Part shown: positions 2,397 through 44,328 of the stretch, piece by piece
How positions within the stretch are numbered: position 1 is the stretch's first letter
Layout of the letters: every line of letters begins with the position of its first letter
DNA from: Phytomonas francai
Lineage: Eukaryota; Euglenozoa; Kinetoplastea; Trypanosomatida; Trypanosomatidae
Assembly (NCBI GenBank): GCA_001766655.1
Contig: MJCC01000010.1
Location: 328,589 to 392,588, forward strand
Direction of reading: 5' to 3'
DNA: 64,000 nt
The notes under the pieces: model-generated
Database searches by the model: none
Told to the model about the DNA's origin: nothing
Seen by the model: the letters and a program-made list of their open reading frames with translations, nothing else
Position numbers and translations under genes: made by a program

Positions 2397-5300
2397 TCAA
2401 AACGAGAACTCATTGACAGACAAATCGACTTCAGCGCCTTTGCTAGCGGGTTCCCCACCCCACCCGTTGGTCTTGGTAGATCCTTGGGCCACCGAGGCCA
2501 CTATGCCTTCGCTAGCCGCGAGTGCTGGAGGGGGGGAGGCGGGCCCTCCCCCTACCACTGCGGTGGCCTTTGCCTTCCGCCTCGACGCGCTCAGCTTGGT
2601 GGCGCGCTCGACACATCGGATCAACTTCCGCATCCGCCGCGCTACGATGACCGAGCGCTCGACCGACGCGAGGTGGTCGTCCTCCGGGGCCGGTTCGCGG
2701 CCAAGCCCGGGGAGGGGCCGGCCCGCCCCCCTGCCGTTGGCGCGCATCGTGTCCTGCAGAAGCCCGCGCAGGGAGGCGCCGCGGCGGCGGAGGTGGAAAA
2801 TCGTGTCGTTGCACCGCTTCCACGACGAGACGGGGTATCGCTGGAGCTCCTCCGGGGTGAGCGCCTCGGCGGTCTTCAGGTTTCGATCAAAGTTGACGCA
2901 GTCCTGGTTCGCCACCACCATGTTCGGCCGAAAACTCGAGAAGCTCAGCTGGTCCGGGTTCCGCACGCGGCTCATGGCGACGTAGAGGAGGTGCGCGCAG
3001 GGCCACATCCGCGAGAGCTCGAGGTGGACCCGCCCGACGAGCGTCAGGCCCTGCACCTTGTGCACCGTAAAGGCGTAGGCGAGCGTGAGCGGCAGCGCGA
3101 CGAGCGAGAGGCCGTAGTAGTTCGTCGCGGGGGTCCCGCCGACGTGGAACTCCCACGGCGGCACCGCCACCGTCTCCCCGCTGTGGAACTTCACGACCGG
3201 GACGAGCGGGATGGGCATGCCGCACTCCGTCACACAAAAGACGCGGTAGCGCTCGATGCAGGCCTCGATGTTCGCGTTCCGCAGGTACTCCGGGAAGTTC
3301 GCGAGCTTGCACTCGACCAGGTCGACGATGGTGCCGATGCTGCCGTTCACCAGGTTCGCGCTGATGTTCGACCGGAGCAGCACGCGACAGCCCTTTTTGA
3401 AGGTCAGCGGCTGCGCGATCGGGTGCTTCGCCATGAGCCGCTGCAGACACTCCTCGTTCTCGGGCGTGTGCAGGCCGTCCCCGTTCGGCACGATCTCGGT
3501 CACGGTGGCCCCAAGATTGAGGTCGTTGATGAGCCCGGCAACCTCCAGAAAGCGCTCGCGCATGGCCTCACGCCAGGCCACGCTCTCACTCGGCGGCAGC
3601 ACCACGCGCATTGCGTGGCCGTCCTCGTAGATGCGGTAGATGGACAGCAGGGAGGCCCGCGGAAAGTCAAGTGTCGCCTGCAGCAACGAGCGGACGTATT
3701 TGGCGAACAGCTCCTGGTCAAAGTTCTCCTTATTGGTGCGCAGTAAAAGCGTCACGGTGGCCTCGCACTTCAGAGAGGTGATGCCGGTCTCGGGTGTGAG
3801 GGTCAGCGGGTCGCCAGGGAGCCGCTCGAGCTCCCGCTCGTTCGCCACTTGAACCTCGCTGTTGGTAGGAAGTAGGTTGACGGCAGACTCCACCATGGTC
3901 CCAGGGGGGAGCTCTTGCACCATCTCCGTCAGATTGCTCGGGACGATGCCCAGACGCATCTGCTGTAAATTCTCGGCGAACTTTGGGAATGCGGATTGCC
4001 TCACCTGCGTCTCCAGGCGGAGCTTCACAAAATTGGTCTGGAAGATCTTAGAGTATATAACCGACTTCTCATGGATGCAGCCGAGCTGGAGAAAGTCTCC
4101 ACAAAGGATAATTTGTACCCCACCGAAGGGCAAATCGGGTGTTCCGGCCTCCTCACGCATCACACGATCGAAGTCCTCGAAGAGGCCCAGTGGGAACATG
4201 GAAACCTCGTCAATGATGATCACATCGTAGTCAAGGATATTCAAGCGACGCAGGAACTCGCCTTTCGATGAAACCCCCATGGTGTGGTGAAAGGTCGAGC
4301 CGCCAACATGGCAGCCCGCGACGCCGGTCGTGGCTGTCATCGCGACGCGCAGGTGATTCGCCCGCAGGCGCCGGTTCAGCGCGCGCAGAAGGACCGACTT
4401 GCCGGTGCCCGCACTTCCCCCGATGTACATGTGATGCCCTTTTAGGGCGATCCCGATCACGCGCTCCTGCTCGGCGTTGAGGTCGATCCCTTTGGTAAGA
4501 TCGTCGGATTCGTCGAGATAGTCTAGCATCGGTTTCCCGTCCACGTTGTTCCCCTCGTGCGAAGAGGAGGTCACGACCGAGGTGTACCTGCTCCGCATGA
4601 CGCTGTTCACCTTTATTTGGATCATCTGCCGGATCGCTTCGGCAGGATCGCTGATGGCGGGGTTCTTGAAGATCCCACCGAGAACGCGAGCTAACATGGT
4701 AGGCCACTTCGCCGGCAGTGTTGACGTCCCTATACGCACACGTTCTGCTAGTTTATTGATTTCCTCCGGTCTTTCAACGTAGATTTGGCGCTGCTCATTG
4801 ACGCCGAAGCCGATGTCCTTGAGGTAAACTATAGAGCTCGATGTCTCGCTCGTCATGCGACCCGTGAGCGCGTTATACACGAGGGTAGTTTGCTGAAAGC
4901 TGCGAGGGGCGCGCTCGTCCGATGGCAATTCGGAGAAGAAGGACAGCTCATCGAGGTTTGCGTCAAAGTCATCGTTTGAATCCACCTTGCGCTCTTTCGA
5001 GGTCTTTGCTTGCTTTCCTTCCGGAGAGGCCTTCTGTGACCCTTTTTTTGTGGCCTTTAATTTCTTTTCAGTCGATTTGGGCAACGGTGGGGTAATTAGG
5101 GAAGGGGCTCGCGGATTCTCTGGAATTTCCGAAATATGCGCTAGACCGCTGACTCCGTGGGGCTCAGGACCAATGACATTTGGTTTCTTTTGCGGTCTTC
5201 CGCGCCGCGCCGCGGTCTTTGGGGGGTTTTCCCCTACAGCAGCACTCTTCGTCGAGGCAAAGCGGCAAGAAGAGGCCAAAGCGGGGCGGCAAATGCTAAC

Positions 5301-5456
5301 AGGAAAGCCTACTTCAGATCTAGTTCTCGTCCTGTAAAACAAGGAAACCACTAGTGGTGATAATTTGGTTGCAAAACAAGGATTATTTGCCAACAGCAAA
5401 GTGTTGAAACAGCCCCTCGCTTGACATGTGGAACTACTACACAAACGACGAAGCAT
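2397..5456 (-). CDS. PIF1-family DNA helicase A, probably mitochondrial
   Basis: This is a 1019-aa superfamily 1B helicase of the PIF1 family, which unwinds DNA 5'-3' and acts on replication intermediates and structured DNA. Walker A (GGSAGTGKS) lies near residue 349 and Walker B (IIIDEVSM) near 412. Motifs V (HKVQGLTL) and VI (YVAMSRVR) fall at about 790-835. The N-terminus starts MLRRLCSSS and is rich in Arg, Ser and Cys with no early acids, consistent with a mitochondrial presequence. Residues 75-190 are Lys/Pro-rich and probably disordered. The start is the ATG at 5454-5456. The next gene upstream (6488-10585) is a second PIF1-like helicase, and bases 2943-3142 are identical to 6737-6936 in it. 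The 3' third of the gene is far more GC-rich than the rest. Kinetoplastids carry an expanded set of PIF1 paralogues, several of them in the kinetoplast; which one this is cannot be decided from sequence alone. Confidence 0.92.
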   Translation of the reverse strand: MLRRLCSSSTCQARGCFNTLLLANNPCFATKLSPLVVSLFYRTRTRSEVGFPVSICRPALASSCRFASTKSAAVGENPPKTAARRGRPQKKPNVIGPEPHGVSGLAHISEIPENPRAPSLITPPLPKSTEKKLKATKKGSQKASPEGKQAKTSKERKVDSNDDFDANLDELSFFSELPSDERAPRSFQQTTLVYNALTGRMTSETSSSIVYLKDIGFGVNEQRQIYVERPEEINKLAERVRIGTSTLPAKWPTMLARVLGGIFKNPAISDPAEAIRQMIQIKVNSVMRSRYTSVVTSSSHEGNNVDGKPMLDYLDESDDLTKGIDLNAEQERVIGIALKGHHMYIGGSAGTGKSVLLRALNRRLRANHLRVAMTATTGVAGCHVGGSTFHHTMGVSSKGEFLRRLNILDYDVIIIDEVSMFPLGLFEDFDRVMREEAGTPDLPFGGVQIILCGDFLQLGCIHEKSVIYSKIFQTNFVKLRLETQVRQSAFPKFAENLQQMRLGIVPSNLTEMVQELPPGTMVESAVNLLPTNSEVQVANERELERLPGDPLTLTPETGITSLKCEATVTLLLRTNKENFDQELFAKYVRSLLQATLDFPRASLLSIYRIYEDGHAMRVVLPPSESVAWREAMRERFLEVAGLINDLNLGATVTEIVPNGDGLHTPENEECLQRLMAKHPIAQPLTFKKGCRVLLRSNISANLVNGSIGTIVDLVECKLANFPEYLRNANIEACIERYRVFCVTECGMPIPLVPVVKFHSGETVAVPPWEFHVGGTPATNYYGLSLVALPLTLAYAFTVHKVQGLTLVGRVHLELSRMWPCAHLLYVAMSRVRNPDQLSFSSFRPNMVVANQDCVNFDRNLKTAEALTPEELQRYPVSSWKRCNDTIFHLRRRGASLRGLLQDTMRANGRGAGRPLPGLGREPAPEDDHLASVERSVIVARRMRKLIRCVERATKLSASRRKAKATAVVGGGPASPPPALAASEGIVASVAQGSTKTNGWGGEPASKGAEVDLSVNEFSF
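2943..3142 (-). repeat. 200-bp tract identical to 6737-6936 (copy A)
   Basis: All 200 bases match copy B at 6737-6936 in the neighbouring PIF1-like gene, in the same orientation and same reading frame. The tract encodes the stretch from GGTPATNYYG to RNPDQLS, covering helicase motifs V and VI. Both flanks diverge immediately at the protein level. Identity at synonymous positions points to recent gene conversion. Confidence 0.95.
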
Positions 5457-6487: not shown

Positions 6488-9400
6488 CTAGAGGAGCTCG
6501 GACAGAATCTTCTCGGCCTCCCGATCGATCCGCGCGCGTTCGCGCCGGCGGCGCCTCTGGCGGCGGTGGGCGAGCTCAGCCCTTCGGCGCGCGGCCGCGC
6601 GGCGGGCGGGGGCGCGAAACCAGGTGGCCTGCACAAACTCCGCCCGCGGCCGCACCCCCCGCACCCCCGGCAGGCCGTCGTCGAAGACGAGGCAGGCCGC
6701 GCTCGCGCGGACGAGGCCGTCGTGGAAGCCGGCGAGGCTCAGCTGGTCCGGGTTCCGCACGCGGCTCATGGCGACGTAGAGGAGGTGCGCGCAGGGCCAC
6801 ATCCGCGAGAGCTCGAGGTGGACCCGCCCGACGAGCGTCAGGCCCTGCACCTTGTGCACCGTAAAGGCGTAGGCGAGCGTGAGCGGCAGCGCGACGAGCG
6901 AGAGGCCGTAGTAGTTCGTCGCGGGGGTCCCGCCGAGGCGGTGCGGCGTGGGCGGGATCAGCACCACCCGGCCGTCCCCGAAGTCGACCTCCGGCAGCAG
7001 CGGGACGCCGAAGCCGCGCTCGAAGCGGAGGAAGTCGATGTAGCCCCGGACCACGTCCTCGCGCTTCGCGCTCGCGGTGAGCCGCGGCGGGAGCTCGTCC
7101 GGGCGGAGCTCGCGGAAGCCCACGACGGTGCCCAGGCTGCCGTTCACCAGGCCAGGCGCGAGGTTCGCCCGCAGCATCACCCGCGCCCCGATTTTGAGCG
7201 GCAGCGGCGCGTTCACCGGCGAGTGCGCGGCGTATTGCTCCAAAATGTACTCATCCGCCTCCGTGTGAAGACCCTCCGCGCTCGGGATGATCTCGCGCAC
7301 CCGCACCCCGAGATCGGCGACCGCAGTCGAGGAAAGATAGTCGGTGAGACCCTCCATGTGAGCTAGTAAGCCATCCGTACCGTCAAATCCGTGCGGAATG
7401 CGCACCCGAAGCACCAGGGCGTCGGCGAAGAGAAGGTAAAGCACAATGTTCTGCTGCTCTAGCATCCGTGTCCACCAGCAATCCCACTCCTTCACCTTTT
7501 CAAAAAAGGTCCCAATGTACAGCTCTATCTCAAGCGCGATCTTCTTCAGATTCAGCTTTCCCTGGCTCCCCACGTGGAGGAGATAGGTCGGGCTCCAGGC
7601 GCCGGACAGAGAAGGGCTCAGCACCTGCGCGTTGAACTCGACCACCTCACCTGGAAGCTTCGCCAGTTCCTGCAGGTTTGTCTCCTGAACTTGCTTGTTC
7701 GTCGGAAATAAATTGACGGCATCTTCAACATAATGTCCTGAGGGAGGACTGACATGCGAAGCATCCGTATTTTGAGTTGGTGCCGCGCAGCCAAGCTTAT
7801 CAGCGCAACTTGGAGAGGTTATCGGAGCCTGAAGATTCTCTTTTCCAACCTCATGGCTCCCAACAACTGCCGCACTAAGGAGGTTCGTTTTCGCTTCAAG
7901 TGGGACGATATCGCTCCCGATGGGTGGAGTAGACTGCGGCGGGATCTCCTCGGGCTGTGTAGAGGTGGTGCCCATCGCGATCGCTTGCAGTTGTGCGCGC
8001 TGCCGCCGCCTGAGCTGCTCCATCTGGTGCGCTTCCTTGGCATCTCGTTTTGTGCAAAGGAATTGGACAGTGTTCTCCAATCCATGAGGCACACGGCCAC
8101 GTCGCAGGACTTGAAGCTGCAGCGCAAAAAGCGGATTCTCACTCTGCCGGATCACTTGCATAAGCTTGAGCATTGCAAAATTGGAACGAAACACCGGTGA
8201 GTGTATGATGGGCTCGGCGGCAATCGCACCCAACTGCATAAAGTCTCCGCACAAGATCATCTGAACCCCACCAAAGGGCAGATTCACGCCATTGGATCGT
8301 CGTAGCTGCCACTCCAAGGTCTCAAAAAGCTCCCGTGGGAGCATGGATACCTCGTCGATGATGATCACATCGTAGGCTTTTAACTCCTCCCGTCGTGTAA
8401 AGTCGCCGTACATGTTGATGCCGAAGCAGTGGTGCAGAGTGCAGCCTCCGATATGGCTGCTCGCGACGCCTGTGGTGGCGGTCACGGCCACGCGCAGTCC
8501 CTCCTGCCGTAGCGTATGCTTTAAAACGTGCAATAAAGACGATTTCCCGGTGCCGGCGCCACCCCCAATATACGTATGGTAGCCTTGTAGAACGAAGCGA
8601 ATGACCTCCTGCTGCTCCTCGTTAAGATCCTCCATCGTCAAGAGCCTTTTGTCGCCCTTCCAACGCATCGCGTCGGCGCGCGCAGCGGCCTGCGGAGGAA
8701 GAAGTTGTCCTGCCAATTCCTTTCCCACACCTTCGCTGGAGGTAGGCACCACCACCCCGGTGTTTTGGCGGTCGTACAGGCGCTGGTACTGCGCTCGTAG
8801 CAAGTCCTCGACCTTCGCCGCCGGATCCTCGATGTGTTTGTCGAGCATAATATATTTCAGCTGCGCGTAAAGAACCCCACGAGACCAGGTTTTCGGCCAT
8901 GAAAGACGGTTTTGCCGCATCGCCGTCGCCATCTCACGCAACGCGGCGGCGTCCTTCACCACTAATTCATGTGTTGTGTCGTCTACGGCGATTCCGAAAA
9001 GCGAAAGCGCGCGAACGGAGGTCGAGGCTTGCTTCACAACACGGCGGGTGAAGACGTTGAAAACTAAAGACTTTTGATCGCTTTTTACTGCATGATCGGG
9101 GTGTGCCGATAACTCGTCAATCACCTCGGCGTCATCGTCGAAGAGGCCGTCTTGGGATTCCTCTACAGACCCCACTCCTTGTCTGTGCGTGTGGTCCTCT
9201 AAAGCATCCAGAACTTCGTCCTGGATCGCTTTATTGTATTGCAAAGGTGCATTAGAACCCCCCTCCACGGGCTCTGCAATCCCCAGCGAGGGTCTGTTTA
9301 GGCTGTCGTTGGTGTCAGCTTCCTTGTTCGCCTCGGATGGCAAGATGACAGTTGAGGAACCAACGTACGAGGGAGAATGGAGTTCTTTTGCTGTCAAAGG

Positions 9401-10585
9401 GGTCTGCGTGCGGAGTAATTCGGGATCCATCAGCGGATAATCAGCCGCCTGCGAGAGCCATTCCACAGGATCAGTGATGATAGGACATGCGCTCCTGCGA
9501 GCTCGCGCGGGCATCGGCTCTTTTTTTTCTTTGGAACCTTTGCTATTATTCTCAGCATCAGTATGGATGGTCTCACTATGAGTGTGTTTGGATAGATGAA
9601 GAGGAAACTCTGGTTCATCCGCAGGGTTTTCCACTTCTTCTGGTAGAGTGTCGAATTGAACGATTTGACTAGGAGAAAAACCATTCTGCATGTTGGCCTG
9701 CACACCACCGCCCTGTTGGCAATCGCCCACTGTGCTGCGGAACTCTGGTCGGTGAAGTAAAGGGACATATTTACGCGGAGCCTCAGGTATGGTGCCGAGA
9801 TCAGAATCGCCCTCGGCGCTCCCGCCGTATCCTTCACCCGGAGAGTCCAAACTAGCGGTCAAATTACCGTCGTCGCTGCCAAGCCTCCAAGCCTTTGCCT
9901 TGCTTGCCCATCCCGGCACAGGAAGGTTTGCGCGGCGCTCCAAAAGCTGCTTTAACACACCTTGGCCCTCCTCGACGGGCCCTTTCGTCGCGACGTACGC
10001 ACCGGCGATCCTACTGAAATCCTTTCCGAGCCCTTCGATACCTGGATGGGGGGAAAGGGTGGATCTTTGAGAACCCCCGCATGTGGTGTGGGCCTTGGGA
10101 GGCCGCGCCTTGGGCGGCTCCACGCCCCCACGCGCAGCCTCAGCCCCATATCCCGCCGAAGACGACGGGGAGCCGCGTGAGCACCGCTGTAGACGAAGCG
10201 CCGCCGGGCCGTAATGGCTATCGAAGCCGCCGAACGCCGTGGACGACGGGCGCGCGCTCGTGGTTCGCCAGCGCCTGCAAGGGGGAATGGGGGGACAGGT
10301 GAGCCCCTTTCGGCCTCCGGGAACGCTCGGGCGATGGTGGCCGACATTGGCCCCACAAACTCCTTGACGAGCCCAAGCGGCGTCCGGGCTGGAGAGGGGC
10401 GCTACGGCGGTTGGGGATCGCAATGGCCTTTCTGACAAGACACGAGGTCCTGTGAATAACGATACAAGCGCTGAGGCACGGTCGGTAGAATGTCGAGATG
10501 GCGGTATCGGATATAAATACTTGAAGATGAGCTGTGTACACAAAAAATGTCTAACTACTTGTTCCAGGACACTTCGTCTTTCCAT
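6488..10585 (-). CDS. PIF1-family DNA helicase B with long N-terminal extension
   Basis: This 1365-aa PIF1-family helicase starts at the ATG at 10583-10585; the open frame extends 36 codons further but only to a TTG. Walker A (GGGAGTGKS) lies near residue 670 and Walker B (IIIDEVSM) near 742. Motifs V and VI at about 1217-1283 are encoded by the 200-bp tract shared with helicase A. The first 600 or so residues are Pro/Ser/Gly-rich, low in predicted structure and unlike helicase A. An insertion of about 100 residues between the motif III region and the later motifs (around 845-960) is also low complexity. The N-terminus (MERRSVLEQVV, then hydrophobic and basic residues) could be a targeting sequence. 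The C-terminal 50 residues are Arg/Ala-rich. The helicase call is firm; cellular location and substrate are not decided. Confidence 0.9.
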   Translation of the reverse strand: MERRSVLEQVVRHFLCTQLIFKYLYPIPPSRHSTDRASALVSLFTGPRVLSERPLRSPTAVAPLSSPDAAWARQGVCGANVGHHRPSVPGGRKGLTCPPIPPCRRWRTTSARPSSTAFGGFDSHYGPAALRLQRCSRGSPSSSAGYGAEAARGGVEPPKARPPKAHTTCGGSQRSTLSPHPGIEGLGKDFSRIAGAYVATKGPVEEGQGVLKQLLERRANLPVPGWASKAKAWRLGSDDGNLTASLDSPGEGYGGSAEGDSDLGTIPEAPRKYVPLLHRPEFRSTVGDCQQGGGVQANMQNGFSPSQIVQFDTLPEEVENPADEPEFPLHLSKHTHSETIHTDAENNSKGSKEKKEPMPARARRSACPIITDPVEWLSQAADYPLMDPELLRTQTPLTAKELHSPSYVGSSTVILPSEANKEADTNDSLNRPSLGIAEPVEGGSNAPLQYNKAIQDEVLDALEDHTHRQGVGSVEESQDGLFDDDAEVIDELSAHPDHAVKSDQKSLVFNVFTRRVVKQASTSVRALSLFGIAVDDTTHELVVKDAAALREMATAMRQNRLSWPKTWSRGVLYAQLKYIMLDKHIEDPAAKVEDLLRAQYQRLYDRQNTGVVVPTSSEGVGKELAGQLLPPQAAARADAMRWKGDKRLLTMEDLNEEQQEVIRFVLQGYHTYIGGGAGTGKSSLLHVLKHTLRQEGLRVAVTATTGVASSHIGGCTLHHCFGINMYGDFTRREELKAYDVIIIDEVSMLPRELFETLEWQLRRSNGVNLPFGGVQMILCGDFMQLGAIAAEPIIHSPVFRSNFAMLKLMQVIRQSENPLFALQLQVLRRGRVPHGLENTVQFLCTKRDAKEAHQMEQLRRRQRAQLQAIAMGTTSTQPEEIPPQSTPPIGSDIVPLEAKTNLLSAAVVGSHEVGKENLQAPITSPSCADKLGCAAPTQNTDASHVSPPSGHYVEDAVNLFPTNKQVQETNLQELAKLPGEVVEFNAQVLSPSLSGAWSPTYLLHVGSQGKLNLKKIALEIELYIGTFFEKVKEWDCWWTRMLEQQNIVLYLLFADALVLRVRIPHGFDGTDGLLAHMEGLTDYLSSTAVADLGVRVREIIPSAEGLHTEADEYILEQYAAHSPVNAPLPLKIGARVMLRANLAPGLVNGSLGTVVGFRELRPDELPPRLTASAKREDVVRGYIDFLRFERGFGVPLLPEVDFGDGRVVLIPPTPHRLGGTPATNYYGLSLVALPLTLAYAFTVHKVQGLTLVGRVHLELSRMWPCAHLLYVAMSRVRNPDQLSLAGFHDGLVRASAACLVFDDGLPGVRGVRPRAEFVQATWFRAPARRAAARRRAELAHRRQRRRRRERARIDREAEKILSELL
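6737..6936 (-). repeat. 200-bp tract identical to 2943-3142 (copy B)
   Basis: Direct-repeat partner of 2943-3142, about 3.8 kb away. It spans helicase motifs V and VI of PIF1-like helicase B. The boundaries are sharp: the base before the tract and the base after it differ between copies. Confidence 0.95.
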
Positions 10586-12060
10586 ACCTAAGCAAAAGAC
10601 TCGACTTTTTGCTTCGTGCTGCTTGTGCTTCACTTGTATCTGGTATATGGTGATACTACAGTGAGCAGAACTAGCCCTAAATGTCTGGAACAATACAAAA
10701 GCCGAATAGACATATAAAAAAAAAGGAAATATACCCCTTTAACAGCTTCCTATTTTGTTCTGTCAAGTCTATGAGCGTGTGTCTGTGTATGTGCGCGTGA
10801 AAGGGTAGGCACAAGAATGGTGAATCAGACCTTATACAAGTCTATATTGTTTGGGAAAAAGTAGCTAAAACGATAATTGTAATAAATATGAAAGGCGGTG
10901 AGTTTAGTCCTTCCTTTTTTTTTTTTTTTGCGGCTCCGAAGAGCCTTAAATGATACTTCTATGTAATATAAAGCGCCTTTCCAATGGAAAGAAATATGAA
11001 ATGGTTTCCTTTTGTGTGCCTATACAAACAAAGAGTCTAGGAGTTTAAAAAATCTGCCTTCTTGTTGGGCCACATGACGCTTTCTTCTATGTAAAGCTTC
11101 TGTAGCCTCTTAGGAAAATAAATGCCAAAATAAATCTATGTGCGTTTCCTACTTTAGCCTCTCGTAGGTGTTACTTCTATGTTGTTATGTAAGATGTATG
11201 ATCAAGATTAAACTTTGCGCTTCTACTTGACAAGACTTTTTTACTCCTTTATAACAGAAAAAAGGCGAAGCCAAATGCTTCTCAAAGCTTCAATACTAAG
11301 AAAAGTAGTTATGAGGAAGCTCTAGGTTAAATTATAGTTCCACGGAATAAGTAAAAAATAGACTTTTTTTTTGTTATCTTTGACGGCTTTGTTGGCTTTT
11401 GTTGCCCATCTTTAGTCCAGATTTGTTTATTGATTCGACGTTTCCCCTCGTAGATGGGATGTCGCAAAGCTAAAGCAAACAGATGTATAAAGGGAAAATC
11501 ACTCTCAAAGGCATACAGACGCATCGTTCTAATTACCCCTTTATAATCAGAATCATATCACAGATATTTAATAATATGGAGACAAATCTTCTATAATTAT
11601 TGACCCAGATCAAATAAACAACAACAACAACAAAAAAAGCATCCTAATTTTTTCCCAAAAGGTTTATCAGAACATATATAAGGGCCAATTTTCTTTTAAA
11701 AATATGTCACAACAATTGGAATTGGTATCTCATAGATGTTTAGTATCATCTGTTCTTTATTATTAAAAGAAGGGTTTGCTGTTCAGCAAGATAGTTTATA
11801 TAGTGATGGGTCGCAATATTTAGGAAAGTTTGATTTTTTTAATGCTGATAGAGAAGCAATAATTTTTTTTGATTTCTCTTCTCTTTCTCGGGAGGTGCAC
11901 CCTCCTCCTCCTCCTCCTCTAAAAAAAAAGATATATTAGTATTTACAGGTTTAAATGCATCCTCTCTAGTGTAAATAAGTACCGACACACTCTTGAAGCT
12001 GTTTTTAACGCACACATTCTGATACTATCTATGTGTTGCTCATCCACCCTTATTTTTCAG
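10586..12060. other. AT-rich intercistronic spacer, no gene seen
   Basis: The spacer is about 1.5 kb. It holds a CCT repeat at 11901-11920 (AGG repeat on the transcribed strand, a possible RNA tetraplex), T runs near 10915-10929, and three near-copies of the word TTCTATGT between 10950 and 11180. Open frames in it are short and AT-driven. I see no structural RNA. Confidence 0.55.
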
Positions 12061-26316: not shown

Positions 26317-27585
26317 CTAATGTGCAGCTAAAAAATGTGTGGAAGTGCCGAATTTGTAGACTTGCTGCCTCTGATACCCCATATCCTTCATAAAACCACC
26401 GTATCGCCAGAAGCCACCCTGCCAGTAGGTAAAATTAAAAATAGGGTTTACGCGTCCGCACACGTAGCTGAGCATTGTCTGCGGACCGCACACCAGGATC
26501 TTTGGGCGATACGTTTTAAGCGCGTCGCCTTGGGTGCCCACACCGCTCGGGGTGTGGGCGTTGGCAAAACTCAGCGGTGGTGGAAGGGCAGCCCGGAGGG
26601 TGGAAGGATCAAGGTTCCCGATAAAGAGATTCACATGGAGCCCCAGCCCCGGGTCCGGTGTCTTTCTCATTGTGAGGGTGTTGTAGCGGACAGCGATACG
26701 ATCCGGGTTTCGGGCCTGAAGAGGGTCGAAGTACGTCTGCTTGAAAGGAATATTCACGGGCGTGTGATGACAGTAGAGGATAGAGAGTTTCGTCCTGTCG
26801 TTGGGGTCCTTGTTAATAATGTTCATAAGCTGCAGCGCCACGGATGCACCGCTGGTGCTGCAGATGAGACCAATCTCAGGGGTCTTGTTCTTTTCATAGT
26901 TAAACTCCTTCATCCAGCGACCTAGGTATACAACGTCGCCTCGCTCCAGGTACCGCAGCCGGCCTGACATTCGCCCTGGATCGCAATCCTTGATTGCGAA
27001 CTCGATAAACCCACGCTCGCGGGGGTGGCTGATCGGGGTATACCACCGCGAGAGCGAGGAGAGCTGCTTGACGCGTCCGCTGTACATGCGCACCGAGCTC
27101 ACCGGCTCGTACCCGGCGTAATCGTAGGAGTGGGGTAGTGCAAAGCGGTAGACAACCATAGGACTCCCATTCTCTCGGTTTTTCTCCACGAGCGTGATCG
27201 GGACGTGTGGACAGAAGAGATACCAGCGCCGCGCGAGCGGTTTCATCTCCTGCCAAGGAACTAGAAAGGCCTGATAGATGCAGTAGCTTGTCCCCACCGC
27301 AACCCCAGCCACGGCGAGCACACGTGCGACGTAGCCCTTGTTGATGTCGTTGAGAGTGCGCAACACCATGTCGGGGATATCCTGTAGGACGTAGGACCAT
27401 CGCTTAGGGGGATTCCGATGCCTCTTGCTCGTTTGGGCGTTCGTTGGGCCAGTTTGTTGCCGCTTATGCGTATGGTACGCACTATCACTGAAGTTGGCTT
27501 CCTGCTGTTGTTGATGATTGGAATGCGATCGGAAGTCGCTGCTAGCACTCTTGGGGTCCGGCAGCCTTTGTGAAGGAAGTGGCAT
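26317..27585 (-). CDS. Cytochrome-b5-reductase-like membrane protein, eroded NAD site
   Basis: A 422-aa protein with ATG at 27583-27585. Residues 1-75 are Gln/Ser/Arg-rich, followed by one hydrophobic helix (about 88-111), then a ferredoxin-reductase-type module. The FAD signature RxYT is present (RWYTPIS, about residue 178), as are the G-x-MS-x-R turn (about 205) and the C-terminal CGPQTML (about 363-369) typical of NADH-cytochrome b5 reductases. The usual GGTGIxP dinucleotide-binding loop is replaced by STSGASV, and the GPxG loop by LGRWMKE. Flavin binding may survive while NAD(P)H binding looks altered. The architecture fits an inner-membrane-anchored mitochondrial protein, but no cleavable presequence is obvious. 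It could be a structural or electron-transfer subunit rather than a free reductase. The fold call is fairly secure; activity is doubtful. Confidence 0.75.
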   Translation of the reverse strand: MPLPSQRLPDPKSASSDFRSHSNHQQQQEANFSDSAYHTHKRQQTGPTNAQTSKRHRNPPKRWSYVLQDIPDMVLRTLNDINKGYVARVLAVAGVAVGTSYCIYQAFLVPWQEMKPLARRWYLFCPHVPITLVEKNRENGSPMVVYRFALPHSYDYAGYEPVSSVRMYSGRVKQLSSLSRWYTPISHPRERGFIEFAIKDCDPGRMSGRLRYLERGDVVYLGRWMKEFNYEKNKTPEIGLICSTSGASVALQLMNIINKDPNDRTKLSILYCHHTPVNIPFKQTYFDPLQARNPDRIAVRYNTLTMRKTPDPGLGLHVNLFIGNLDPSTLRAALPPPLSFANAHTPSGVGTQGDALKTYRPKILVCGPQTMLSYVCGRVNPIFNFTYWQGGFWRYGGFMKDMGYQRQQVYKFGTSTHFLAAH

Positions 27586-28131
27586 TACCTTTTTGGGTCT
27601 ATCACTACTAAGTCTCCAGCAGGGAGTTTTCTCACCCCTTTCTATGGGACCTAAGACTACAATCGTCCTAAAGACTAAGAAAGGTCAAAGAATTTGGGAA
27701 AAGGAGTTTGGAAGAAAGCAATTAAGTCCCCCTTTTTTTCGGGGCTTTCGGACTTGAGGAACTGACACACCCCTTTTTTACACATTTTTATTTTGTTCTA
27801 ATTCCTCTTAACCTTTTACAGCTGACTCATTATTGGATACTCTCAATAGCAACTATCCTTTGACATAAGAAATTAAGGGGAGGGAGGTGCCCCCTTTTGA
27901 ATTCTATCAAATTGCTACCAAAAATAAGAAAAAAGAGAGGATCGCTACTTTCCTTTGGGTTTGCCACGGTACTGTCTTTCCGCTATCGTCTACTTGGCTA
28001 TTATCCAGAATCGATGATTCGCCCCTAAATACCACCGGATACCTTTGTAGAGATTCACAGTGGTGCACTTACTACTAAAAGGCTTTGTTTTACTTCATAA
28101 AGTGACATTTGAAGTCTTGCCTCTTGCCCCC
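27586..28131. other. AT-rich spacer, nothing recognised
   Basis: About 550 bases between the reductase-like gene and the PEPCK-like gene. Contains T and A runs and short frames only. Confidence 0.5.
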
Positions 28132-29919
28132 TTAGATCCGCCCTTCCTTTGAAAGTGTGTCTAGGAGGTCCCTAGCCTGACTCGGTGGCACTACCTTGAC
28201 GCTTCTAGCCTTTTTGAACGCATCGTCAAAGGCGGCCTTCAGAGGTGCCTCCTCGGCATACAGGGCGGACCTTTCTCGTAGCTCATTCAAGACCGCTTCC
28301 GAGGCATCGTTGCCCTCACCAATGATAACCACGTCCACGTCTTCGATCGGGAAGCGGCTTGGACGCACCTCATGACCGCTCAGCTCGTTCTTCTTTGGGG
28401 CCTTGAAAAGATTTCCAGCGGCGTACGCCTTGGTCGCCACGTCCTCGGTGTAGTTGTGCGGCCATTTAAAGCCGTATTCTGAGACATGACGCCTGCCGTG
28501 GAGGCGGTGGGAGAGGGATTTCGGGAGCCCAATTCGCGTTGGCAGGCTCTGCTGAACGCGACCAAGATCCGCCTCGATAAGGTCGGTGGGCTGAATGCTC
28601 CGGGCCTGATCAAGCGGCACGGAGACAACATCCGAGGTGCGCGAGACTACGCCGTTCGCGATCCGGTGATGACGGCTTCCGTAGAGATACGGGGAGTTGC
28701 GCAGGAGATCCGCCTCCTTCTCAGGGGCGACGACCAACGTCAGGTGGCCATCCTCCGGGGAGAGCACCGACTCGGCGGGGACCGTGAGGAGGCCCTTGTC
28801 ATCCGCGTAAAACCCCCAGCGCGCACAAAGAAAGGCGACGGTATCCATGAGAACATCGCAGCTCGGCTCCCCACCGATCACCGCCTTCATTGGGATGCTG
28901 TACGGCTCTAACGCGACGAATCGGTTGGTGGATAGTCCCATATCCTTCGGCCGCGGCCCGCCGAACTCCTCGACAATACGCGGCGCCTCAAAATCGTAGG
29001 CGGGGGCGTGATAGACGAGCACACCCGGGCGCCGCCAACCCCACTCATCAATCGGGGACTGCGAGACGCGCTTCACCAAGGTGACTTCCTGACGGGCCAC
29101 ATAGTTAAACTTGCGTAAGGCAGCTAACGTGGCATAGTAGGCGTGTGTTGGGTTATCCGTGATAATGCGGTAAGGTGTGCAGGTTTCTAGGTCACTGCCG
29201 AAGACGCCATCCACCAAGTAGAACCGCAGGCCGTTTCCGAGGTGATACTGGACCTCGCGCAGAACCCGTTTCCCGTGCAGCGCGCTGATCTCCGCGTAGC
29301 CTTTGTTCGCTGGGTTCTTCATCCGGCGATGCATCTCGTGCTCCTTTGTGTGCGGAAAGACGAGCCGCTGGGCGGGGGTCGCGAGGCTGCCGTAGTGGAC
29401 GGATACGGCGCCACTTGAGGGGTCCTTTTGCCCCCACGTCCGGCCGCGCAGCTCGTGCGGGCGCAGGTTGTACTCCCCGATGCCGTAGGTGAAGCGCCAG
29501 ACCCCGGACCACATCCCTGCATTCGCGTAGTCCCCCACCTGGGCCCAGTTCGAGACCAACGTGCTGCTGTTCGCGTTCCACCACGGCCCGGGGTCCTCGT
29601 TGGTTTTGAGAAAGAGCGTCAGGGAGTCGTAGCCCCAGCGGTGCATCGCGCGCAGATAATTGGCCTCGCCCGCGGGGCCGGAGGGCCGCCGCGGCATCAC
29701 CTCCGCACGGAAAACGGGCTTCCGGCGCTCCTCCTCGGCGTCGGGGTTGCAGCAGATTTCGTTGAGGATCGACATCTGCCCGGCGGTTTGGCCTGGGATC
29801 GGTTTGAGCGTTTCCTGAATGCTGGTATAGCGCACCCCGCGCCGTTGGAGACGGAGAGCCCCGGTGGCCCCCGTTGGGGCCTTGAGAAGAGGCTTGCATA
29901 GCAAAGAAGGACGCAACAT
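28132..29919 (-). CDS. PEP-carboxykinase-like mitochondrial protein, probable pseudoenzyme
   Basis: A 595-aa protein with ATG at 29917-29919; the open frame continues six codons to a TTG. The first 35 residues (MLRPSLLCKPLLKAPTG, then RLQRRGVRY) look like a mitochondrial presequence. Segments follow the order of ATP-dependent PEP carboxykinase. Residues about 168-190 (SSGAVSVHYGS) correspond to its GAL-V stretch. Residues 231-255 (FYLVDGVFGSD, YRIITDNPTHAYY) match the family's VVDxFxGxD and HALF region. Residues about 310-355 (FVALEP, VIGGEPS) match the strand before the nucleotide site. Where the family has the kinase-1 P-loop (GxxGxGKT), this protein has VVAPEKEADLL (about 395-405), and the metal-binding GDDE is GSRHH. 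ATP and metal binding therefore appear lost. A structural or complex-subunit role is plausible. The homology is by eye and distant. Confidence 0.6.
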   Translation of the reverse strand: MLRPSLLCKPLLKAPTGATGALRLQRRGVRYTSIQETLKPIPGQTAGQMSILNEICCNPDAEEERRKPVFRAEVMPRRPSGPAGEANYLRAMHRWGYDSLTLFLKTNEDPGPWWNANSSTLVSNWAQVGDYANAGMWSGVWRFTYGIGEYNLRPHELRGRTWGQKDPSSGAVSVHYGSLATPAQRLVFPHTKEHEMHRRMKNPANKGYAEISALHGKRVLREVQYHLGNGLRFYLVDGVFGSDLETCTPYRIITDNPTHAYYATLAALRKFNYVARQEVTLVKRVSQSPIDEWGWRRPGVLVYHAPAYDFEAPRIVEEFGGPRPKDMGLSTNRFVALEPYSIPMKAVIGGEPSCDVLMDTVAFLCARWGFYADDKGLLTVPAESVLSPEDGHLTLVVAPEKEADLLRNSPYLYGSRHHRIANGVVSRTSDVVSVPLDQARSIQPTDLIEADLGRVQQSLPTRIGLPKSLSHRLHGRRHVSEYGFKWPHNYTEDVATKAYAAGNLFKAPKKNELSGHEVRPSRFPIEDVDVVIIGEGNDASEAVLNELRERSALYAEEAPLKAAFDDAFKKARSVKVVPPSQARDLLDTLSKEGRI

Positions 29920-42709: not shown

Positions 42710-44014
42710 TTAAAAATTTTTTGTGCCTCTAATTTTTCGGAGATTCTTCCACATGTAATGGGACTCTTTTATCACTTGCATGGCAAACGCCTTGTTTTTG
42801 AACTCGCCGTTGAACATAAACTTGTTTTCGACGCCGCCTTGGCAAATCTTGTAGACCCGAAACCACTCTCGTATAGCATCTAAGCAACCGGGAAGGAACT
42901 TTGGTACATCGTCGATATCCTTCATAAACCGCGTAATAGGATCGTTCACAGAGATGCAGACAACTTTCCAGTCCATCTGCGCGTCGTCGATCAGGCCGAG
43001 AATCCCGAGTACCTTGACGGGGTGCACATCCCCCACACGCATCTGCTGCATTCCTATCTCGACTGCGTCGATGGGATCATTGTCGCCTTTGTAATCCTCG
43101 TGAAAGGTCACCTCCGTACTTTCCCACGTCTGCGGCATCGCGCCGTAATTCCACATCATATCCCCGTGCTTGTAGAAGCGTGGCACGCCGTTTTTAATAT
43201 CTTGCTTGATCGGATTGAAGGGCTCATCGGTGGCGATCTCAAACTTAGCGCGGGTCCACTTGGGAATTTCACAGATCATGTTGTAGCGGTTTGCCGGGAT
43301 GTGCTCGGGTTTCGTGCGCAAAGGATCACACACACGCAGGAGGATGTCATGCCAGGGGCTCACCTGCCGCACGTGGCCGGTTTCGAGATCCTTGAAAAAG
43401 TACTTGATGCGGTAGCTCGGAGTGAAATTCTCGCCTTCCTCGCTTTTTTTAAGCTGCTGCTGATGATAGGGGACAGAGAAGTCGGCGGATACGAGTGAAA
43501 AGGCTTTTTTTGTTATGCTGCTGTCCGGGCATTTGACCCACCAATCCCAGAATTGTTCAAAAGTGACCTTATTATCACTCGAGCGTAGCTCCGAGAACAT
43601 CTTTTCGATTGTCTCAGCGCTAATAGAGCGACCAACGTACTCGCAAAGTTCCTTCAACCTGGAGATATCAAGATAGTGCGTCTGTTGAACATCGAAGGCA
43701 GTGAACATGCGTCTCATAATTTTCTTTTGTTGGTATTCTGTGAGCCCCTCCTTCGTGTACGCCGCTCTGTCAAACTCCGTTACTCTTGAAAAATCACCTT
43801 TTTCCTCGTACGGCGACCCAACCGAATTGCTTCCGTTCAGTTCCATCATCCCAACGTCAGTAGAGGAGATACCGGTCCCAAATTTTCTCACCACATTTGT
43901 CGGGCACTTCACTTCCACCGACGGGCTGAATTCTTGAGCATCGGAGGCAACACCATCGTCAAAGGAATAGTTTCCATCCAAGATGTTGTCGGATTCGCAG
44001 TGGAAAAGGTTCAT
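42710..44014 (-). CDS. VSP1: Soluble inorganic pyrophosphatase with EF-hand (VSP1 type)
   Basis: A 434-aa protein with ATG at 44012-44014; the frame extends three codons to a GTG. Residues about 90-165 form an EF-hand pair. The first loop (DVQQTHYLDISR) keeps most positions but has Arg at position 12, and the second is degenerate, so calcium binding may be weak. The C-terminal half is a family I soluble pyrophosphatase. Its signature GDNDPIDAVEIG (about 308-319) contains the catalytic DxxD-type aspartates. Other landmarks are KHGDMMWNYGAMPQTW, DVHPVKVLGILGLIDDAQMDWKV and the KNKAFAM segment. The EF-hand plus PPase fusion is characteristic of trypanosomatid vacuolar soluble pyrophosphatase (VSP1), which hydrolyses pyrophosphate and short polyphosphate in acidocalcisomes. 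Overall the assignment is strong; localisation follows from the family. Confidence 0.92.
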   Translation of the reverse strand: MNLFHCESDNILDGNYSFDDGVASDAQEFSPSVEVKCPTNVVRKFGTGISSTDVGMMELNGSNSVGSPYEEKGDFSRVTEFDRAAYTKEGLTEYQQKKIMRRMFTAFDVQQTHYLDISRLKELCEYVGRSISAETIEKMFSELRSSDNKVTFEQFWDWWVKCPDSSITKKAFSLVSADFSVPYHQQQLKKSEEGENFTPSYRIKYFFKDLETGHVRQVSPWHDILLRVCDPLRTKPEHIPANRYNMICEIPKWTRAKFEIATDEPFNPIKQDIKNGVPRFYKHGDMMWNYGAMPQTWESTEVTFHEDYKGDNDPIDAVEIGMQQMRVGDVHPVKVLGILGLIDDAQMDWKVVCISVNDPITRFMKDIDDVPKFLPGCLDAIREWFRVYKICQGGVENKFMFNGEFKNKAFAMQVIKESHYMWKNLRKIRGTKNF

Positions 44015-44328
44015 GTTTAACACTTGGAATCAGTTTATTTTAAGGTTATATACGCGTAAACTGGATCTTCAAAAAAAAAAAAAACGGCAATAAGCACGAA
44101 ACAAAATTTGTACATGTTACTCATTTTCTGCGTAGATTCCTACAGCAAAATCCGTCTATAAAAGAAGAGGCAAAAAATGTTGTATGCAAAGGGAGCATTA
44201 TCACGTTGTGTTATATACATGTATATAGCTACATGTATATAAATGTATATCAGTACAGATGTAACGTTAGAAAAGAACCTTCTAGCCCCTTTTTTGTCTT
44301 ACTAAGCAGTGAACAGCATCACTCGATC
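44015..44328. other. Short AT-rich spacer
   Basis: About 314 bases including an A run and a TATACATGTATATA-like repeat near 44212-44250. No gene. Confidence 0.5.

Follow-up and report, generated by a model that had tools for sequence, protein, structure and literature searches.

A coding sequence in the trypanosomatid Phytomonas francai very probably encodes the Phytomonas-type orthologue of NDUTB12/NDUEG2, a complex I accessory subunit that is derived from phosphoenolpyruvate carboxykinase (PEPCK), has lost the catalytic site, and probably acts as a scaffold or stabilizer in the matrix. The gene lies within a window of 64,000 nucleotides, the whole stretch analyzed here (assembly GCA_001766655.1, contig MJCC01000010.1, positions 328,589 to 392,588); coordinates below are those of the window. 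The initial annotation of this DNA had described a PEPCK-like fold without ATP and metal sites. The observation is real and the reading is right, but it is already known: the family, where it is located, and that it probably lacks catalysis have been published (PMC10884005, PMC12699882, PMC8312217, and PMC6018760). Our additions are small, namely a kinetoplastid motif map and the description of an N-terminal extension. The protein clearly illustrates how the respiratory chain can take up a former enzyme that no longer catalyzes its reaction; here the published conclusion was recovered independently from raw sequence.

28132..29919, minus strand: coding sequence of the probable NDUTB12/NDUEG2 orthologue (595 amino acids and a stop codon; ATG at 29919)

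Among PDB sequences, the sole informative match is to NDUEG2, a chain of Euglena complex I (E 2.4e-10 with the single sequence, 6.4e-22 with a profile); NDUEG2 is also the best fold match to the model of the window protein. NDUEG2 has been placed in the cryo-electron microscopy structure of Euglena complex I (PMC10884005), and a 2025 diplonemid study equates it with DIPPA_18104 and Trypanosoma brucei NDUTB12 (PMC12699882). Complex I purified from Euglena contained NDTB12 (PMC6018760). Likewise, NDUTB12 was detected by liquid chromatography-mass spectrometry in NADH-dehydrogenase bands of Phytomonas serpens, N. esmeraldas, and S. podlipaevi (PMC8312217). Of the two roles suggested earlier for the recruited protein, structural or regulatory subunit, the structural one is supported by the Euglena structure and the P. 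serpens bands. With regard to nomenclature, Tetrahymena NDUTT2 is given as the homologue of NDUEG2 in PMC12854811 and as NDUEG1 in PMC10884005; the latter, as the primary source, was followed. A literature search for “PEPCK-like” with complex I in Euglenozoa returned no paper under those words.

Some points weigh against this identification. Identity to Euglena NDUEG2 is just ~20%, and confident sequence similarity is confined to one stretch of ~160 residues. The step from NDUEG2 to NDUTB12 (T. brucei XP_828770.1) would follow from the published table of equivalences combined with the NDUEG2 match. No kinetoplastid complex I structure was found by literature search or PDB sequence searches, and it is the Euglena structure that supplies the FAS-domain placement. 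In addition, the gel bands of PMC8312217 are not pure complex I, since ATP synthase subunits, alternative oxidases, and a 2-oxoglutarate dehydrogenase component were likewise detected in those of P. serpens.

The homologue set comprises at least 54 proteins (E <= 1e-3), with scoring applied to the 7996 candidates sharing most words with the query. Phytomonas sp. Hart1 (84%) and EM1 (82%) are the nearest homologues among the matches listed; further relatives listed come from Leishmania, Leptomonas, Trypanosoma, the free-living Neobodo designis, and many unnamed environmental sequences. A protein search of the assembly (17.4 Mb, 37 contigs) gave a single match to the 595-residue protein. Conservation was measured in an alignment of 42 rows (the window protein and 41 of the 54 homologues, 13 being omitted to limit redundancy), while a second alignment joined the PEPCK of this genome to 44 of 120 listed PEPCKs, the best 120 of 8000 matches. 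Motifs were counted independently of either alignment, by plain regular-expression search of all 54 homologues and all 120 listed PEPCKs.

Descent from PEPCK is most apparent in the fold. The predicted model (mean predicted local distance difference test score, pLDDT, 75.6; pLDDT >= 90 in 260 of 595 residues) superposes on PEPCK over the following domain, in agreement with the annotation, which had proposed comparison of a predicted structure as a check.

28135..29541, minus strand: PEPCK-like domain (residues 127-595, by fold comparison)

The match stops at residue 464 of the E. coli enzyme (~540 residues), so the C-terminus of the enzyme is unmatched. From sequence alone, the resemblance is marginal. 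The profile-profile comparison proposed alongside did yield a PEPCK alignment, but with an hhalign probability of just 24%, and one of 20 shuffles scored nearly as well. As a single query, the protein matched no Pfam and no NCBIfam family. These marginal values and the lack of a Pfam match are what a chance likeness between unrelated proteins would have in its favor; the fold comparison opposes this explanation, provided that the model holds, and we rejected it on the fold search as having practically no probability.

To judge from its residues, the PEPCK active site is gone from the window protein. The profile alignment locates three sites of interest:

28702..28734, minus strand: VVAPEKEADLL at the P-loop position (residues 396-406)
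28666..28680, minus strand: GSRHH where PEPCK has GDDEH (residues 414-418)
28885..28902, minus strand: YSIPMK in place of PEPCK YAGEMK(K) (residues 340-345)

The first two strings are those that the annotation had assigned to the P-loop and GDDE positions, and both placements stand. In the same alignment, the P-loop Gly-Thr-Gly-Lys-Thr faces E400-K401-E402-A403-D404, the two GDD aspartates face S415-R416, and the columns of the metal ligands Lys, His, and Asp hold A346, P381, and R416. Single aligned positions are provisional, because the overall probability of this alignment is low. The loss extends across the family: in the 42 rows, K is found at 346 in none and D at 416 in one, and two have Lys in the column of the P-loop Lys. 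The motif counts agree, and together with the fold comparison they bear out the annotated fold without ATP and metal sites. The kinase-1a P-loop G.SGTGK is absent from the window protein and from all 54 homologues, and is present in 120/120 PEPCKs; GDD and GEMKK each occur in 0/54 homologues and 119/120 PEPCKs. Of the PEPCK motif Y-A-G-E-M-K-K, Tyr340 and Met344 are kept in 42/42 rows and Lys345 in 39/42 (Arg in the other three), while the Gly and Glu are replaced by Ile and Pro in 42/42 and the second Lys by Ala346 in the window protein. That second Lys is presumably a metal ligand, the ligands in E. coli being, as we take it, K213, H232, and D269. We likewise assume the E. coli site residues and their roles to be those of R65, Y207, K212, K213, H232, K254, T255, D268, D269, and R333; several of these are named in the titles of PDB entries among the fold matches. 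No conserved Arg was found in the 42 rows at the column of PEPCK Arg43, in a weak part of the alignment.

It is very improbable that the protein is an active, divergent mitochondrial PEPCK that has re-formed its nucleotide site in another part of the chain. Such an enzyme would account for the kept fold, the kept Tyr340, Met344, and Lys345, the Lys found in two rows at the P-loop column, and one T. cruzi record named “Phosphoenolpyruvate carboxykinase, related”. However, a nucleotide site elsewhere, which the annotation had named as refuting, has as its sole candidates generic GxxxxGK[ST] strings in 2/54 homologues (P0048, P0050), near residues 486 and 469 and far downstream of the P-loop position. 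The altered metal-ligand columns, the unmatched C-terminus, and the separate intact PEPCK of the organism also argue against it, as does the absence of detected catalytic activity for the Euglena FAS subunits in the excerpts of PMC10884005. Catalytic PEPCK identity was rejected on the lost motifs and unmatched C-terminus.

What the family conserves differs from what PEPCK conserves. Regional conservation is expressed as the mean majority in the 42-row alignment, skipping columns with fewer than 20 residues (1 of 31 for residues 1-31, 5 of 95 for 32-126, and 1 of 469 for 127-595). Three further features are relevant:

29827..29919, minus strand: putative mitochondrial presequence (residues 1-31; Arg/Lys-rich, weakly conserved with a mean majority of 0.35; presumed targeting and cleavage site)
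29542..29826, minus strand: N-terminal extension (residues 32-126, outside the PEPCK match)
28948..28971, minus strand: EEFGGPRP, family signature (residues 317-324)

The extension is conserved (0.67 over 90 of 95 columns) like the core (0.64), with pLDDT of 30-58 by blocks of ten residues in the isolated model. EEFGGPRP occurs in 53/54 homologues and Y[SA]IPM[KR] in 54/54, and neither in any of the 120 PEPCKs. The highest conservation measured is in residues 281-391 (0.75), which contain a near-invariant loop (313-320) with pLDDT < 50 in the isolated model. The P-loop region (397-411) is poorly conserved (0.49, with indels), as is the C-terminal part (0.47); the GDDE-equivalent stretch (412-418) shows fair conservation (0.71), though of a sequence unlike that of PEPCK. 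On the model, residues 32-126 and loop 313-320 may be contacts that become ordered upon assembly. This map, with its variable P-loop region, near-invariant new motifs, and conserved extension, points to the parts likely to be important for complex I assembly in kinetoplastids.

The same map bears on a regulatory role, in which a remnant pocket (Tyr340/Lys345) would bind a metabolite, such as a small carboxylate, and modulate the assembly or activity of complex I. Across the 42 aligned proteins these pocket positions hardly vary, in contrast to the P-loop region, and the Euglena subunit sits at the tip of the peripheral arm (PMC10884005). Yet folding or a subunit interface would explain this invariance equally well, the motif Gly and Glu have become Ile and Pro in every row, no Arg is conserved at the Arg43 column, and the excerpts of PMC10884005 mention no NDUEG2 ligand. 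We consider this role unlikely. A specific form, in which Tyr, Met, and Lys of Y[S/A]IPM[K/R] bind a metabolite and the N-terminal extension, disordered yet conserved, couples this dead PEPCK to complex I as a ligand-sensing or assembly-gating subunit of kinetoplastids, is a slim prospect.

Assignment to complex I is consistent with the biology of the organism. Phytomonas is reported to have lost complexes III and IV (PMC7828693), and complex I is described as the only respiratory-chain proton pump in P. serpens (PMC8312217). In agreement with this picture, the assembly has matches to the complex I 51-kDa family PF01512 (at C32, E 4.8e-42) and to the alternative oxidase family, and no match was obtained for the cytochrome c1 and COX15 families, although very divergent genes could escape such a search (prokaryote-genome controls match 1/14 and 7/14). 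That such a genome has kept the gene is consistent with a complex I subunit, one genome being weak evidence. Given the missing cytochrome c1/COX15 matches and the kept gene, we considered a link to complexes III/IV improbable. An intact PEPCK is encoded on another contig (651 bits), in a frame carrying GLSGTGKTTLS and GDDE.

The following scheme would account for these data. An ATP-type PEPCK would have been recruited in a euglenozoan ancestor, keeping its fold and losing its P-loop, metal ligands, and C-terminal end. The nuclear-encoded protein is probably imported into mitochondria, as its Arg/Lys-rich N-terminus suggests. By analogy with the published Euglena structure, it would belong to the “FAS domain”, which lies on the matrix side at the tip of the peripheral arm of complex I. 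Likely partners in this domain are NDUTB17/NDUEG1 and the MDR-type NDUTB2/NDUTB3 (NDUEG3/5). There it may act as a scaffold or stabilizer without PEPCK catalysis, the PEPCK activity of the organism being expected from the separate intact gene.

The adjoining gene (26317-27585, minus strand) encodes a cytochrome-b5-reductase-like flavoprotein (PF00970, E 1.1e-7). All 49 aligned rows retain the FAD motif R-x-x-T-P. The usual b5-reductase NAD-site motif is G-x-x-G-[IV]-[TS]-P; here it reads CSTSGASVA, and the Pro is found only in 4/49 rows, all more distant homologues (P0219-P0222). This neighbor may be another oxidoreductase that has eroded. A search for signs that it is a complex I subunit found none, its 17 PDB matches (E <= 1) including no chain of Euglena complex I. 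In T. congolense, the b5-reductase-like and NDUTB12 genes carry consecutive tags (TCIL3000_11_7570, _7580; window 26317-29919), so the neighborhood looks conserved; in trypanosomatids, such conservation does not necessarily reflect a common function. Elsewhere in the window, two large minus-strand open reading frames (2397-5456 and 6488-10693) with Walker-type GGSAGTGKS and GGGAGTGKS motifs are presumably divergent PIF1-family helicases. An identical stretch near their C-termini, GGTPATNYYGLSLVALPLTLAYAFTVHKVQGL..., seen by eye, suggests possible gene conversion or recent duplication. By eye, we take the frame at 42710-44023 (minus strand) to resemble a soluble inorganic pyrophosphatase with an EF-hand-like N-terminal part, comparable to the acidocalcisomal trypanosomatid enzyme.

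Among known systems, ATP-dependent PEPCK (PF01293; E. coli PckA; T. cruzi glycosomal enzyme, 1ii2) shares its overall fold with residues 127-595. In contrast to these enzymes, the window protein is without the P-loop, metal ligands, and C-terminal end, has gained the N-terminal extension and family motifs, and is probably mitochondrial, whereas the T. cruzi enzyme is glycosomal. The NDUTB12 of trypanosomatids (PMC8312217, PMC12699882) belongs to the same family by published equivalence and has been detected in complex I bands of the congeneric P. serpens. No difference from it is known, and the window protein is regarded as its orthologue in a different isolate or species. Euglena gracilis NDUEG2 (PDB 8iuf, 8j9h; PMC10884005) is shorter, with 467-472 residues and ~49 before the matched part, compared with 595 and 126 in the window protein, and neither GGPRP nor YSIPMK is conserved in its aligned chain. 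It likewise has a PEPCK fold without the ATP sites, and the two proteins have a PRIVEEF...G stretch in common.
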